Source of the DNA: a virus
Reading direction: 5' to 3' (one strand)
DNA length: 34,602 bases
IMG/VR virus record: IMGVR_UViG_3300017971_000564
Span: 1-34,602 of that record
Shown here: positions 21,710 through 31,046 of the stretch, piece by piece
How the letters are laid out: every line of letters starts with the position of its first letter
Position numbering within the stretch: the stretch's first letter is position 1
Position numbers and translations under genes: made by a program
The notes under the pieces: model-generated
Told to the model about the DNA's origin: nothing
Database searches by the model: none
Seen by the model: only the letters and a program-made list of their open reading frames with translations

Positions 21710-23935
21710 GTGGCGGTGAGCGCCGAGTACACGGCGGCCGTCGAGAAGGTGGCGCGGCGACACGTCGCGGTCGTGCGGTTCACCAACCTCGTCTGCCCGC
21801 TCGGTGGCACGACCGAGATGGTATTCGCCTCCAAGGAGGGCGCCTCCATCTACAAGCGGGTCGCCGACCAGGTCTACCCCTACGTCCTGGAGATCCCCGG
21901 GACCACGGTCAAGATCGCGCCCAGCACCTTCACCAAGACCTCCCGCACGGCCAAGAGCGTGGTGATGGCCGACGACTACACGGTGGGCAAGACCTGGTTT
22001 GACAGCGGGTGCACGGCCGCAACAGACGGCCTCTCCTTCTGGCATACCTTCGTCCACGCGTTCCCCGATTACTTCGGCACCGACGTCGAGATCATTTCCT
22101 TCTTCAGCGACCCGGGCCTCACCGACCTCGACAAGGGGCGGACCATCTTCGTCGGCCAGCTCGAGAACATCCGCTTCGGCCAGGACCGGACCGTCGAGCT
22201 GGTGGTGCGGGATACCCTCTACTTCAAGAACAAGAGCCTGCCCGCGGCCACCGCCTCCTCCCAGAAGATCACGAGCGCCATGACCTCCTCGTCGGCAAAC
22301 GTCAACGTGAGCGATGGGAGCCAGTACAGCGACCCCGACGACTGGACCAACGTCCACTGGCCGCCGCCCTGCGTGCGTATCGAGAGCGAGGTCATCGCCT
22401 ACAGGAACGTCGCGGGCAACGCCCTGAGGGTGGCTCGGAACTACATCAAGCGCTCCGAGGAGATGGCCCACGCCGACTGGACGAGGACGAATACCACGGT
22501 CGTCGACCAGGCGGACAGCGGCCCGTGGGGGGGCGAGAAGTACAACGCCACCGAGGTCGAGTTCACTGCCGCCGGCGCCAACGCCGCGGCCACCGGGGTC
22601 GAGGCCGTCTCGGGCCAGGAGTTCCACTACTCGGTGTGGCTGAAGGAGCACCCGGACCACCCGGGCGAGACCGTGCGCATCACGCTCCAGAACGATGCGG
22701 GGACCACGTTCTTCAACTCGGATGTGACCCTGACCGACGAGTGGCAGCGCTTCAAGGTCACCGGGACGTTCGGGGCCGTGCCCGGGAACGCCATCGGGAA
22801 GGTCCAGGCCAAGACCACCTACGCGACCCCCTACTCCTTCTACGCCTCGCAGCACCAGGTGGACGACGGCAGCGCGTTCCGGCCCTACGTCTACACCGGG
22901 GCCTCGGCCGGCGACGACGCGGGGCGCGGGGCCTACGGGACGTCCGCTGCTTCCCATGCCGACGACACGGCCATCCGGGAGATGATGGTCTACGCGGCGC
23001 CCTCGGACGGCACGAAGGGCCTGAACCCGTTCATGGTATTCAGGTCGCTGTGCGCCATCGCGGAGATCCCCAACTCCAAGATCGAGGTCGATGACCTGGA
23101 CGCCGAGCGGCTGTTGGCCCCCAGCGACAGCGCGCGGCGCTTCATCGAGCGGCCCCGCAAGATCGCGCAGCTGGTGGCCGAGCTGTCCGCCGACTTCCTC
23201 ATCGACTTCTGGACCAACGAGGACGGCCTTATCACCGGCCGGCTGAGCTACCGTTCCAAGCGCATCGGGGAGACCATCGAGGTCCTGGACGAGGCCGACC
23301 AGATCCTGGCCGAGCCCCCGCTCGTGGACGAGGGGAAGGACGACCGGCTCAGCCGGGGCATCGCCTACTATGAGATTGAGAAGGACGCCCAGGGCAGGGA
23401 GAAGGACGGCACGAAGCCCGACGACTACGAGGAGGCGGAGGTCATCGACGATCCCTCCTACGAGGGCGCGAACGGCGCGGCCCAGCGGACCAAGTTCTTC
23501 TTCACCCGCTGGATCTACCGGGAGGCCGAGGCCGACGCGCTGGTCACCCGCCAGCTGGCCCGCTTCGGTGATGGCGCCCGGCGAGCGATTGCCCGCGTCG
23601 GCTACCGTGCGCGGGGCATCGTGAAGGTGGGGTTCACCTACGAGATCCGGAGCACGCAGCTGACCGGGATCGGGAGCGGCGGGGACGTCGAGGCGACGCC
23701 GGTGGTCATGCAGATGCTGTCGGCCGAGGACGAGGGCGAGGGCACGGAGATGGAGGTCGAGCTGCTCGAGGCGATCGGCCAGAACCTCGCGTACTATCAC
23801 GCCTCTCCCTATACTGGGGCCAGCGACTACGACACGGACAAGGCGGCGGATCCCTCGCTGCTCGAGTACGCCTACTGGGCGGACACGGACGCGCGGCTGG
23901 GCGCCGACGACGATCCGCCCTACGTCTGGGGGTAA
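21710..23935 (+). CDS. Baseplate hub / tail-associated protein with inserted carbohydrate-binding-like domain, 741 aa
   Basis: The GTG at 21710 follows the previous stop by one base. The N-terminal third (HVAVVRFTNLVCPLGG..., GQLENIRFGQDRTVELVVRDT) and the C-terminal third (GLNPFMVFRSLC, VAELSADFLIDFWTNEDG, YEIEKDAQG) look like the hub protein of siphoviruses. Residues 243-405 are different. They read like a CBM4/9-type jelly roll (YIKRSEEMAHADWTRT, FHYSVWLKEHPDHPGETVRITL, WQRFKVTGTF) and interrupt a common tail motif, NALRVAR / RGAYGTSAASHADDTA. The insert probably binds host surface sugars. Confidence 0.75.
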   Translation: MAVSAEYTAAVEKVARRHVAVVRFTNLVCPLGGTTEMVFASKEGASIYKRVADQVYPYVLEIPGTTVKIAPSTFTKTSRTAKSVVMADDYTVGKTWFDSGCTAATDGLSFWHTFVHAFPDYFGTDVEIISFFSDPGLTDLDKGRTIFVGQLENIRFGQDRTVELVVRDTLYFKNKSLPAATASSQKITSAMTSSSANVNVSDGSQYSDPDDWTNVHWPPPCVRIESEVIAYRNVAGNALRVARNYIKRSEEMAHADWTRTNTTVVDQADSGPWGGEKYNATEVEFTAAGANAAATGVEAVSGQEFHYSVWLKEHPDHPGETVRITLQNDAGTTFFNSDVTLTDEWQRFKVTGTFGAVPGNAIGKVQAKTTYATPYSFYASQHQVDDGSAFRPYVYTGASAGDDAGRGAYGTSAASHADDTAIREMMVYAAPSDGTKGLNPFMVFRSLCAIAEIPNSKIEVDDLDAERLLAPSDSARRFIERPRKIAQLVAELSADFLIDFWTNEDGLITGRLSYRSKRIGETIEVLDEADQILAEPPLVDEGKDDRLSRGIAYYEIEKDAQGREKDGTKPDDYEEAEVIDDPSYEGANGAAQRTKFFFTRWIYREAEADALVTRQLARFGDGARRAIARVGYRARGIVKVGFTYEIRSTQLTGIGSGGDVEATPVVMQMLSAEDEGEGTEMEVELLEAIGQNLAYYHASPYTGASDYDTDKAADPSLLEYAYWADTDARLGADDDPPYVWG

Positions 23936-27510: not shown

Positions 27511-27654
27511 ATGACCCGTGAACAGAAGATCACCGAGGCATGCCGTCGTCATGCGGCTGGGTTGGCCAAGGCTTCGGGTGGCAACCTCAATCCGCGTGGC
27601 GTCGGCGCGCTCATCGCCAAGCTCAACCGCGCCGCTTGGAGATCCCGTGTATGA
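27511..27654 (+). CDS. Small basic protein, 47 aa
   Basis: The ATG at 27511 follows the previous stop by three bases. The product (TREQKITEACRRHAAGLAKASGGNLNPRGVGALIAKL) is helical and basic. Its stop overlaps the starts of both frames of the methyltransferase region. Family not known. Confidence 0.5.
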   Translation: MTREQKITEACRRHAAGLAKASGGNLNPRGVGALIAKLNRAAWRSRV

Positions 27655-28372
27655 GCTGGCACTATTTGCCGGAGCTGGTGGCGGGCTCCTCGGCTCCAGC
27701 CTCCTCGGGTGGCGCACCGTCTGCGCCGTGGAAGTGGAACCGTTCTGCCGGGAGATCCTGTTGCGCCGTCAGCGGGACGGTCTGCTCGACCTGTTCCCGG
27801 TGTGGGATGACGTTCGGACCTTCGCGGGCCGACCTTGGCGTGGCGCTGTGGATGTCGTCACTGCTGGCTTCCCGTGCCAACCGTTCTCGGTCGCCGGCGC
27901 GATGCGGGGAGCCGACGACGACCGGAACCTCTGGCCCGAGACCGCCCGCATACTTGGCGAGGTTCGACCCCGCTACGCGTTCCTGGAGAACGTCCCAGGG
28001 CTCCTTACCTCTGGCTACTTCGATACCGTGCTCGGTGACCTGGACGCGCTCGGGTTCGATGCGACGTGGGATTGTCTACCCGCGTCCGCCATCGGTGCCC
28101 CTCACCGGAGGGACCGACTCTGGATTGTGGCCCACGCCGAGCGCGCGCGACTGGAAGAGCAGCAACGCGAGCCCCGAGACAATGGCGCGGAATGCTCGGC
28201 CTCTGAACGAGGTAGCGACCGCGGGGAAGGGTGGGCCACTGAACCCAACGTGGGTCGAGTGGCTCATGGGGTGGCCCATCGGGTGGACCGCATTAGAGCC
28301 CTTGGAAATGGCCAGGTTCCGCGAGTGGTCGCGGAGGCATGGAGGAGGTTGAGATGCCGTGGATCGCGATAG
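27647..28372 (+). CDS. DNA cytosine-5 methyltransferase, 241 aa
   Basis: The GTG at 27647 starts four bases before the overlapping ORF. The standard m5C motifs appear in order: I, LFAGAGGGL (6-14); IV, GFPCQPFS (74-81) with catalytic Cys77; VI, LENV (113-116); VIII, GAPHRRDRLW (150-159); and X, RALGNGQVP (217-225). The target recognition region between VIII and IX is short, roughly 40 residues. The enzyme should methylate cytosine in an unknown site and protect phage DNA. From about 28150 on, G/C at third positions is lower in this frame than in the overlapping one. Confidence 0.88.
   Translation: MYELALFAGAGGGLLGSSLLGWRTVCAVEVEPFCREILLRRQRDGLLDLFPVWDDVRTFAGRPWRGAVDVVTAGFPCQPFSVAGAMRGADDDRNLWPETARILGEVRPRYAFLENVPGLLTSGYFDTVLGDLDALGFDATWDCLPASAIGAPHRRDRLWIVAHAERARLEEQQREPRDNGAECSASERGSDRGEGWATEPNVGRVAHGVAHRVDRIRALGNGQVPRVVAEAWRRLRCRGSR
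27651..28352 (+). CDS. Overlapping ORF resembling the phage MSWHYL/MSWLYS protein family, 233 aa
   Basis: A second uninterrupted frame covers almost the whole methyltransferase gene. It starts at an ATG in an ATGA overlap and encodes MSWHYLPEL, CSRCGMTFGP, YLARFDPATRSWRTSQGSL, GLWPTPSARDWKS, and LNPTWVEWLMGWPIGWT. From memory, the same order of motifs marks a set of phage and prophage proteins usually annotated as hypothetical or methylase-related. By hand count, third-position G/C over the last 67 codons is about 78% here against about 60% in the methyltransferase frame. Whether it is translated cannot be decided from the sequence. No own Shine-Dalgarno is clear. Confidence 0.5.
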   Translation: MSWHYLPELVAGSSAPASSGGAPSAPWKWNRSAGRSCCAVSGTVCSTCSRCGMTFGPSRADLGVALWMSSLLASRANRSRSPARCGEPTTTGTSGPRPPAYLARFDPATRSWRTSQGSLPLATSIPCSVTWTRSGSMRRGIVYPRPPSVPLTGGTDSGLWPTPSARDWKSSNASPETMARNARPLNEVATAGKGGPLNPTWVEWLMGWPIGWTALEPLEMARFREWSRRHGGG

Positions 28373-30038: not shown

Positions 30039-30354
30039 CCAGACCGAGCTGGACTTCTCCGCCGTGCCCCCTCCCCGGGCGCGGCGGGGCGACCCGGTTA
30101 CCAGCCACATCTCGGCACGCATGGCCGAGGGCATGGTGACCGGTCACGACCGGCAGGTCATGGACGCCCTGCTGGGGGAGCTGCGGTCGACGGGTGGCAC
30201 GGGCCACGAGATCGCGGCGGCGACCGGGCTCAACAACGTGCAGGTCATGCGGCGGATCAAGCCCCTGCGCGACGGGGGCCTGGTGGAGGAGACCGAGGAC
30301 ACGCGGCCGTCGCCATCGGGGCGGCCGTGCACCGTATGGAGGGCGAAGCGATGA
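30019..30354 (+). CDS. Winged helix-turn-helix protein, 111 aa
   Basis: The ATG at 30019 overlaps the erf gene. Residues 55-100 (MDALLGELRSTGGTGHEIAAATGLNNVQVMRRIKPLRDGGLVEET) form a wHTH, followed by TRPSPSGRPCTVWRA, a common wing end in phage versions. It may regulate early genes or bind replicating DNA. Confidence 0.75.
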   Translation: MAKRPSSQTELDFSAVPPPRARRGDPVTSHISARMAEGMVTGHDRQVMDALLGELRSTGGTGHEIAAATGLNNVQVMRRIKPLRDGGLVEETEDTRPSPSGRPCTVWRAKR

Positions 30355-31046
30355 GGATTCGACCGCTGGCGTTCTCGCCAGAGATGGTCCTGGCGCTACG
30401 CGCCGGCCGGAAGACGCAGACGCGGCGGGTGCTGCGAACGCAGCCGACGTACAGCCCCGTGGCAGACGGCGGCCTGTGGGAGTTCCCGTGGGGCGCGGCG
30501 ACGTCGATGGACTACATGCCGGTCGTGCGCGGTCACCGGACCGCCAACGTCTGTCCTCATGGGATGGTGGGCGACTTCCTATGGGTGCGCGAGGCGTGGC
30601 GGGCGCCAGCCTATCTCAACGACTGCAACGCGTTCGAGATCGACGCGCGAGCCCGCTTCGTGGGATTTGAGCCCGGTGGGCCGATGGACCCACGCTGCGC
30701 CCTTCGCTACGAGGCTGACGGCGAGGAGCGCCGCGATTGGGCCGGTGTGAAGGACTACGACTGGAGGCCGTGGGGCCGATATCGGCACGCGCGATTCATG
30801 CCCCGATGGGCCGCCCGACTATACCTCCAGATCACGCGACTGCGCCTCGAGCGCGTACAGTTGATCGACGAGGCCGACGCCGAGGCGGAGGGATGCTACG
30901 CGGCCGGCGGTGGTGTGCCCGACGCGCGCTGGCAGTTCCGTGGCATATGGCAAACACTCAACGCGAACCGAGGCTCCGGCTGGGACGGGAACCCATGGGT
31001 ATGGGTTCTCGACTTCCACCCGGTGCCGCAGGAGGTAGTGGAATGA
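30351..31046 (+). CDS. ASCH-domain-like protein, 231 aa
   Basis: The ATG at 30351 overlaps the previous stop. RPLAFSPEMVLALRAGRKTQTRRV is the standard start of phage ASCH-type proteins, with GDFLWVREAW, FMPRWAARLYLQITRLRLERVQLI, and NPWVWVLDFH. The fold is related to PUA and probably binds RNA or modified nucleotides. Precise function unknown. Confidence 0.8.
   Translation: MRIRPLAFSPEMVLALRAGRKTQTRRVLRTQPTYSPVADGGLWEFPWGAATSMDYMPVVRGHRTANVCPHGMVGDFLWVREAWRAPAYLNDCNAFEIDARARFVGFEPGGPMDPRCALRYEADGEERRDWAGVKDYDWRPWGRYRHARFMPRWAARLYLQITRLRLERVQLIDEADAEAEGCYAAGGGVPDARWQFRGIWQTLNANRGSGWDGNPWVWVLDFHPVPQEVVE

Follow-up and report, generated by a model that had tools for sequence, protein, structure and literature searches.

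According to our analysis, the locus studied here most probably encodes a single cytosine-5 DNA methyltransferase as two polypeptides, alpha and beta, read from overlapping frames of the same DNA, and we put the probability of this reading at roughly 0.86. It is based on comparison: both frames are maintained among homologs, alpha is without motif IX, beta holds the equivalent of that motif, and the pieces are fused in relatives. From these observations we infer the translation of beta, the assembly of the two chains, their activity and their biological role. Because the two-frame arrangement is kept across hundreds of phages and prophages, we regard the second frame, to judge from the sequences, as a real, poorly annotated enzyme subunit and not as a chance reading.

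Two overlapping frames at one locus

The window, that is, the whole stretch of DNA analysed, is a dsDNA phage record of 34.6 kb, whose genes include those for terminase, portal, major head, tape-measure and Erf-like proteins. The two long frames described in an earlier note on this DNA are both present, beta (27651-28352) being nested within alpha (27647-28372) with its ATG 4 bases 3' of the alpha GTG. The features of the locus are as follows.

27638 to 27641, + strand: Shine-Dalgarno-like GGAG, identified in the sequence; upstream of both starts, 5 bases from that of alpha and 9 from that of beta
27647 to 28372, + strand: alpha subunit, the m5C methyltransferase frame; GTG start, TAG stop at 28370-28372, 241 aa; motifs I-VIII and X, without IX
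27651 to 28352, + strand: predicted beta subunit, the overlapping frame, +1 relative to alpha; ATG start, TGA stop at 28350-28352, 233 aa
27662 to 27685, + strand: alpha motif I (LFAGAGGG), from the translation; conserved in alignment A2
27866 to 27883, + strand: alpha motif IV with the catalytic cysteine (GFPCQP); G74, F75, P76 and C77 invariant in A2
27951 to 28085, + strand: beta residues 101-145 (..FDPATRSWRTS..SVTWTRSGSMRRG..); predicted strands 103-106, 111-113, 135-138 and 141-144; constrained in beta
27986 to 27994, + strand: alpha motif VI (ENV); E114 and N115 invariant in A2
28094 to 28132, + strand: alpha motif VIII (GAPHRRDRLWIVA, which includes GAPHRRDR); R155 and R157 invariant in A2
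28122 to 28157, + strand: beta PTP-type segment (GLWPTPSARDWK), with which the presumed target-recognition region opens; in the fused mycobacteriophage enzymes it is found on one chain, after VIII and before IX
28239 to 28289, + strand: beta motif-IX equivalent (LNPTWVEWLMGWPIGWT), identified by conservation; at the motif-IX position of the fused enzymes (hhalign 97%), with a fast beta wobble position
28295 to 28321, + strand: alpha motif X (RALGNGQVP); conserved in A2

Elsewhere in the window, positions 30351-31043 encode a phrog_874 protein (E 2e-50), which belongs to a conserved phage family without known function, and positions 21710-23935, after the tape-measure region, hold a 741-aa ORF with no PHROG match.

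Distribution of the conserved motifs between alpha and beta

Alpha matches phrog_363 (E 5.3e-70) and Pfam PF00145 (E 2.8e-34), its residues 5-172 corresponding to positions 5-170 of the 324 in the Pfam profile, and positions 4-168 of the alpha profile align with residues 15-176 of M.HhaI. The catalytic residues PC, EN, R155 and R157 are invariant among the 85 homologs of A2. Intact catalytic motifs are thus shared with the monomeric m5C methyltransferases of PF00145, such as M.HhaI and M.HaeIII; the latter, however, keep motifs I to X on one chain, whereas alpha has a very short variable region and no motif IX. In the translation, the Pfam comparison and the homolog alignment alike, a motif of the LTPxExxRLQGFP type is absent from alpha, and positions 171-324 of PF00145 find no counterpart. 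The earlier description of this frame as having all m5C motifs in order therefore holds for I-VIII and X and fails for IX.

Beta matches phrog_1008, annotated as 'DNA methyltransferase' (E 1.8e-27), and has no direct match in Pfam, NCBIfam or PADLOC, its first 95 residues in particular matching no Pfam family. PHROG 363 and 1008 are both labelled DNA methyltransferase, and the two frames of the window fall one into each; they are nevertheless two separate entries, and the matches themselves give no hint of a shared stretch of DNA. A PDB profile search with beta returned chance matches only. The structure model of beta alone is poor (pLDDT 59), and the absence of a PDB match in a Foldseek search with this model is expected at such confidence.

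The peptide LNPTWVEWLMGWPIGWT, which in the beta frame directly precedes the DNA encoding alpha motif X, is conserved at 90-100% in most positions among 84-85 homologs (consensus LNPxWVEWLMGWPxGWT). Against the profile of the monomeric enzymes it aligns in register with motif IX, at an hhalign E of 0.42 which is below significance, so that the link runs via the family of fused enzymes. These are methylases of cluster-F mycobacteriophages (Fancypants gp73 and loci L147 and L152-L171), which share with the window pair the N-terminal half, the PTP-type segments, motif IX (EWMMGWPAGW) and motif X, but are encoded as a single polypeptide in a single frame, unlike the two frames of the window. In Fancypants gp73, one chain runs from motifs I-VIII to LLPTPSAAD and LLSTPQARDYKG, then to NPRLAAAFPEWMMGWPAGWVTE and LRIIGNGVVPQQ, and 21 fused proteins of this type align with one another. 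BLASTP aligned window beta with Fancypants gp73 at 2e-4, the match covering motif IX and the PTP segment, and hhalign of the C-terminal alignments of beta and the fused enzymes gave 97%. The structure model of the fused enzyme superposes on M.HhaI over residues 12 to 325 (Z 20.1, 188 residues, rmsd 2.6). In our view these fusions fix the probable function of beta, since the same pieces stand there on one chain.

The earlier note had assigned the second frame to a separate group of phage proteins; on the comparison above, it would instead be the other subunit of the same enzyme, supplying the motif IX that alpha is missing. A related proposal, that beta is a free-standing protein with a function of its own unrelated to methylation and overprinted on the enzyme, could appeal to its 95 N-terminal residues outside any Pfam family, yet its C-terminal half is the very part of the enzyme found in the fused relatives, and no clear beta without alpha occurs among the loci, the exceptions being contig ends or remnants with alpha equally truncated. 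We deem this proposal very improbable.

The beta frame is open beyond chance

The homologs were collected by IMG/VR scans, where L007-L086 were found by beta, while L087-L139 and L262-L341 were found by alpha only. As null model we used a codon permutation that preserves the alpha protein and the alpha codon counts. Of 81 non-redundant loci, 77 keep beta open all the way between its start and motif X, where the model predicts 1.25; for the alpha-found subset the figures are 21 of 22 and 0.14. Two independent repeats on non-redundant, alpha-found phage loci gave 25/27 versus 0.26 expected and 39/40 versus 0.83, and the bacterial genomes of the beta-found set gave 50/53 versus 1.4. The third frame is open in none of the tested loci, and in control enzymes, five fused and five monomeric, the second frame is open in 0/10. 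Stops in the second frame of homologs with an intact methyltransferase are accordingly rare (77/81, 25/27 and 39/40 open), and overprinting is not refuted by them. One locus shows the reverse, a single in-frame stop (L043:2317-2320) which interrupts alpha and leaves beta intact, and which reflects a decayed gene or an error.

These counts bear on the suggestion that the second frame stays open as a by-product, owing to conservation of the methyltransferase and to GC-rich codons, and has often been annotated though no gene at all. The GC content of 68% speaks for it, as does the window taken alone, where the open beta frame is reached by codon permutation with P = 0.026, weak evidence beside the overwhelming excess across the family. 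However, 77 open frames were found where 1.25 are expected with alpha protein and codons held fixed, the third frame is never open, the monomeric and fused controls are uniformly closed, the alpha-found sets were picked without reference to beta, the same peptide stands in frame in the fused enzymes, and over motif IX the third position of alpha is the slowest base. The open-frame excess and the codon-position rates together lead us to reject the by-product explanation, to which we leave next to no probability.

Codon-position constraint

In this overlap the third position of alpha is the second of beta and the first of alpha is the third of beta, so that substitution rates show which frame rules each segment. 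The fastest base across alpha residues 3-100 and 219-240 is the third position of alpha, with a third/first ratio of 1.5 to 3.8. Between residues 161 and 195 the frames are balanced (0.76-0.91), and over residues 196-218, which cover beta motif IX, the ratio drops to 0.37, the alpha third position being the slowest (0.087) and the beta third position the fastest (0.238). The fused enzymes, with motif IX in frame, show ordinary wobble there, with a ratio of 3.8. Synonymous sites of alpha are thus strongly constrained over motif IX, as overprinting predicts, and given these rates the alpha peptide 'EPNVGRVAHGVAHRVDR' appears to be largely a passenger of beta motif IX. In L340, beta reads HPDFVELIMDFPDKWT and the alpha segment there is altered, motif X being retained.

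Amino-acid conservation points the same way, the strongest excess being that of beta over motif IX (identity 0.80 versus 0.30 in the shuffle null). Beta residues 101-145 score a BLOSUM value of 2.30 against 0.48 in the null and 1.34 in the third frame, whereas the first 95 residues are no more conserved than the third-frame control. Since the third frame, too, exceeds the shuffle null through shared descent, amino-acid conservation was not taken as proof alone, and codon-position rates and stop avoidance were used. The remark of the earlier note on third-position G/C is roughly right: up to 28150 the frames are equal (0.76 versus 0.74), beyond that point beta is higher (0.74 versus 0.61), and across the motif-IX stretch the values are 0.80 for beta and 0.50 for alpha. 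Its interpretation as a whole is partly supported: true overprinting is borne out, the second frame being conserved and constrained beyond the demands of alpha.

Paired starts and a probable shared ribosome-binding site

Of the 263 loci that begin with (x)ELxLF, 228 have ATG and 20 have GTG as the beta start triplet (248/263), and the alpha codon 2 that overlaps it is AAT in 222 and AAC in 1. An ATG, GTG or TTG for alpha lies exactly 4 bases 5' of the beta start in 186 of 205 distinct starts. A Shine-Dalgarno core is found upstream of 120 of these 205 (59%), compared with 28% in shuffled sequence, and it most often lies 4-6 bases from the alpha start. The first 90 codons of beta are stop-free in 45 of 49 loci, where 13.4 are expected, and this avoidance of stops favours initiation at the upstream beta start. 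Beta would then be translated from the ATG 4 bases downstream of the alpha start, sharing the ribosome-binding site of alpha.

Frameshifting was the other alternative raised in the earlier note. In a programmed form, ribosomes would pass from alpha into beta and return to alpha for motif X, giving one long enzyme. The fused versions demonstrate that a single chain works, and the order of the frames, alpha and then beta at +1, would suit a shift after motif VIII. The window would, however, need two shifts, and the VIII/PTP junction is among the most variable nucleotides of the locus (alpha third positions of residues 146-175 at 0.49-0.54), so that it holds no conserved nucleotide block and no conserved slippery site. 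Nor would frameshifting need a stop-free beta leader or a conserved beta start of its own. Given the variable junction and the conserved start, we find frameshifting improbable and favour two separately initiated subunits.

A doubtful but conceivable extension is that the near-complete overprinting, with its starts 4 bases apart, acts as a device by which a single ribosome-binding site yields both subunits at a constant ratio, with the catalytic and recognition halves co-inherited, and that the overprinted first 95 residues of beta are more than a spacer and do something in their own right, for instance keeping the chains together during translation.

Spread and rearranged relatives

In IMG/VR, alpha finds at least 596 matching stretches and beta at least 598. 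Bacterial matches (n = 158) include Pseudomonas, Acinetobacter, Halomonas, Chromobacterium and Verrucomicrobia, and are probably prophages for the most part. Among 30 loci related to the fused enzymes, IX and X stand in the frame of the N-terminal half in 24 and in another frame in 6; in L175, L176 and L178, close relatives of the fused enzymes, beta overlaps alpha at +1. In L032, L040, L102 and L128/129, motif X follows IX in the beta frame, and alpha stops after VIII. Split pairs are also seen in Nyxis gp78/77, with a 26-base overlap, and Ryadel gp8/7, with a 209-base overlap, and Paenibacillus phage Bloom gp56/57 is a nested pair of which each member is annotated as a cytosine methyltransferase.

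Further variation was noted. The VIII-IX region of both fused enzymes and beta (L102:1957-3375, L154-L181) has tandem [L/W]PTPxxxD modules in varying number, up to about six, and these modules may set the recognition sequence. In L126 and L127 three frames are involved: one is alpha with I-VIII, the second starts like the N-terminus of beta and continues into motif X, and the third holds motif IX, a layout which is common to both contigs and hence probably no sequencing error. L139 (1819-2126) is a decayed copy of the pair, in which an internal deletion has brought motifs I and IX together in each frame. The nested 'methyltransferase' ORF of Streptococcus phage pST (L143:1460-1879) was set aside as a probably spurious annotation, the enclosing enzyme being monomeric with its own motif IX.

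Proposed mechanism and origin

Alpha, with motifs I-VIII and X, is predicted to bind the cofactor and provide the catalytic cysteine, and beta to contribute, through its C-terminal half, both motif IX and the PTP-type region for recognition. The two would form a heterodimer, one active enzyme, as expected by analogy with M.EcoHK31I, and the phage DNA methylated by this enzyme would probably be shielded from host restriction. Among the window ORFs examined, no restriction enzyme was identified nearby. As to the origin of the arrangement, a single-chain enzyme could plausibly first have undergone a frameshift somewhere after VIII and ahead of its recognition region, after which the tail would have been translated from a start within the first half, and this start may then have moved upstream until it came to share the ribosome-binding site of alpha. 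Indels between IX and X could likewise have shifted motif X between frames.

For dsDNA phages there are few documented cases of long genes that overlap on one strand and have a known function in either frame. Within the family described here the enzyme is fused in some members, split or partly nested in others and fully overprinted in others again, and the steps of protein splitting and overprinting are therefore traceable. For annotation, records which give one frame only list half an enzyme, so that cloning or specificity prediction from alpha alone would probably fail; Pfam, moreover, lacks a model for the beta family.

Comparison with known systems

Excerpts of the literature on overlapping genes in phages, on the methylases of mycobacteriophages and on P2-like phages of Burkholderia contain no description of the alpha/beta pair, and the out-of-frame HNH element in a phage methylase (PMC11855218) is a different overlap. 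Two-polypeptide m5C methyltransferases are known in M.EcoHK31I (YGGCCR; Lee, Kam and Shaw 1995, described in PMC3404938), where motifs I-VIII and X and the predicted target recognition domain are on the large subunit and only IX is on the small one (PMC3404938), and in M.AquI (CYCGRG), where alpha has I-VIII and beta IX-X (PMC3404938). With M.EcoHK31I the window shares a large chain with I-VIII and X and a motif IX found only on the smaller chain, a likeness in the described motif partition. The M.EcoHK31I beta gene reportedly lies within the alpha gene in another frame, and window beta is likewise nested, at +1. Unlike in M.EcoHK31I, the two starts in the window are 4 bases apart, that of beta being the second, almost the whole of alpha is overprinted, and the locus is a phage gene. 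The split after VIII is common to M.AquI and the window pair, and the M.AquI partition, with IX and X on beta, is matched by L032, L040, L102, L128, Nyxis gp78/77 and Ryadel gp8/7, whereas the window pair keeps motif X on alpha and overlaps almost completely. As judged from motif order, then, the phage family contains both the M.EcoHK31I and the M.AquI partition. The partition of motifs was already known from M.EcoHK31I; what is new here is that two genes with paired starts overprint each other almost completely, that this layout is so broadly distributed among phages and prophages, and that its frames have been rearranged in nature.
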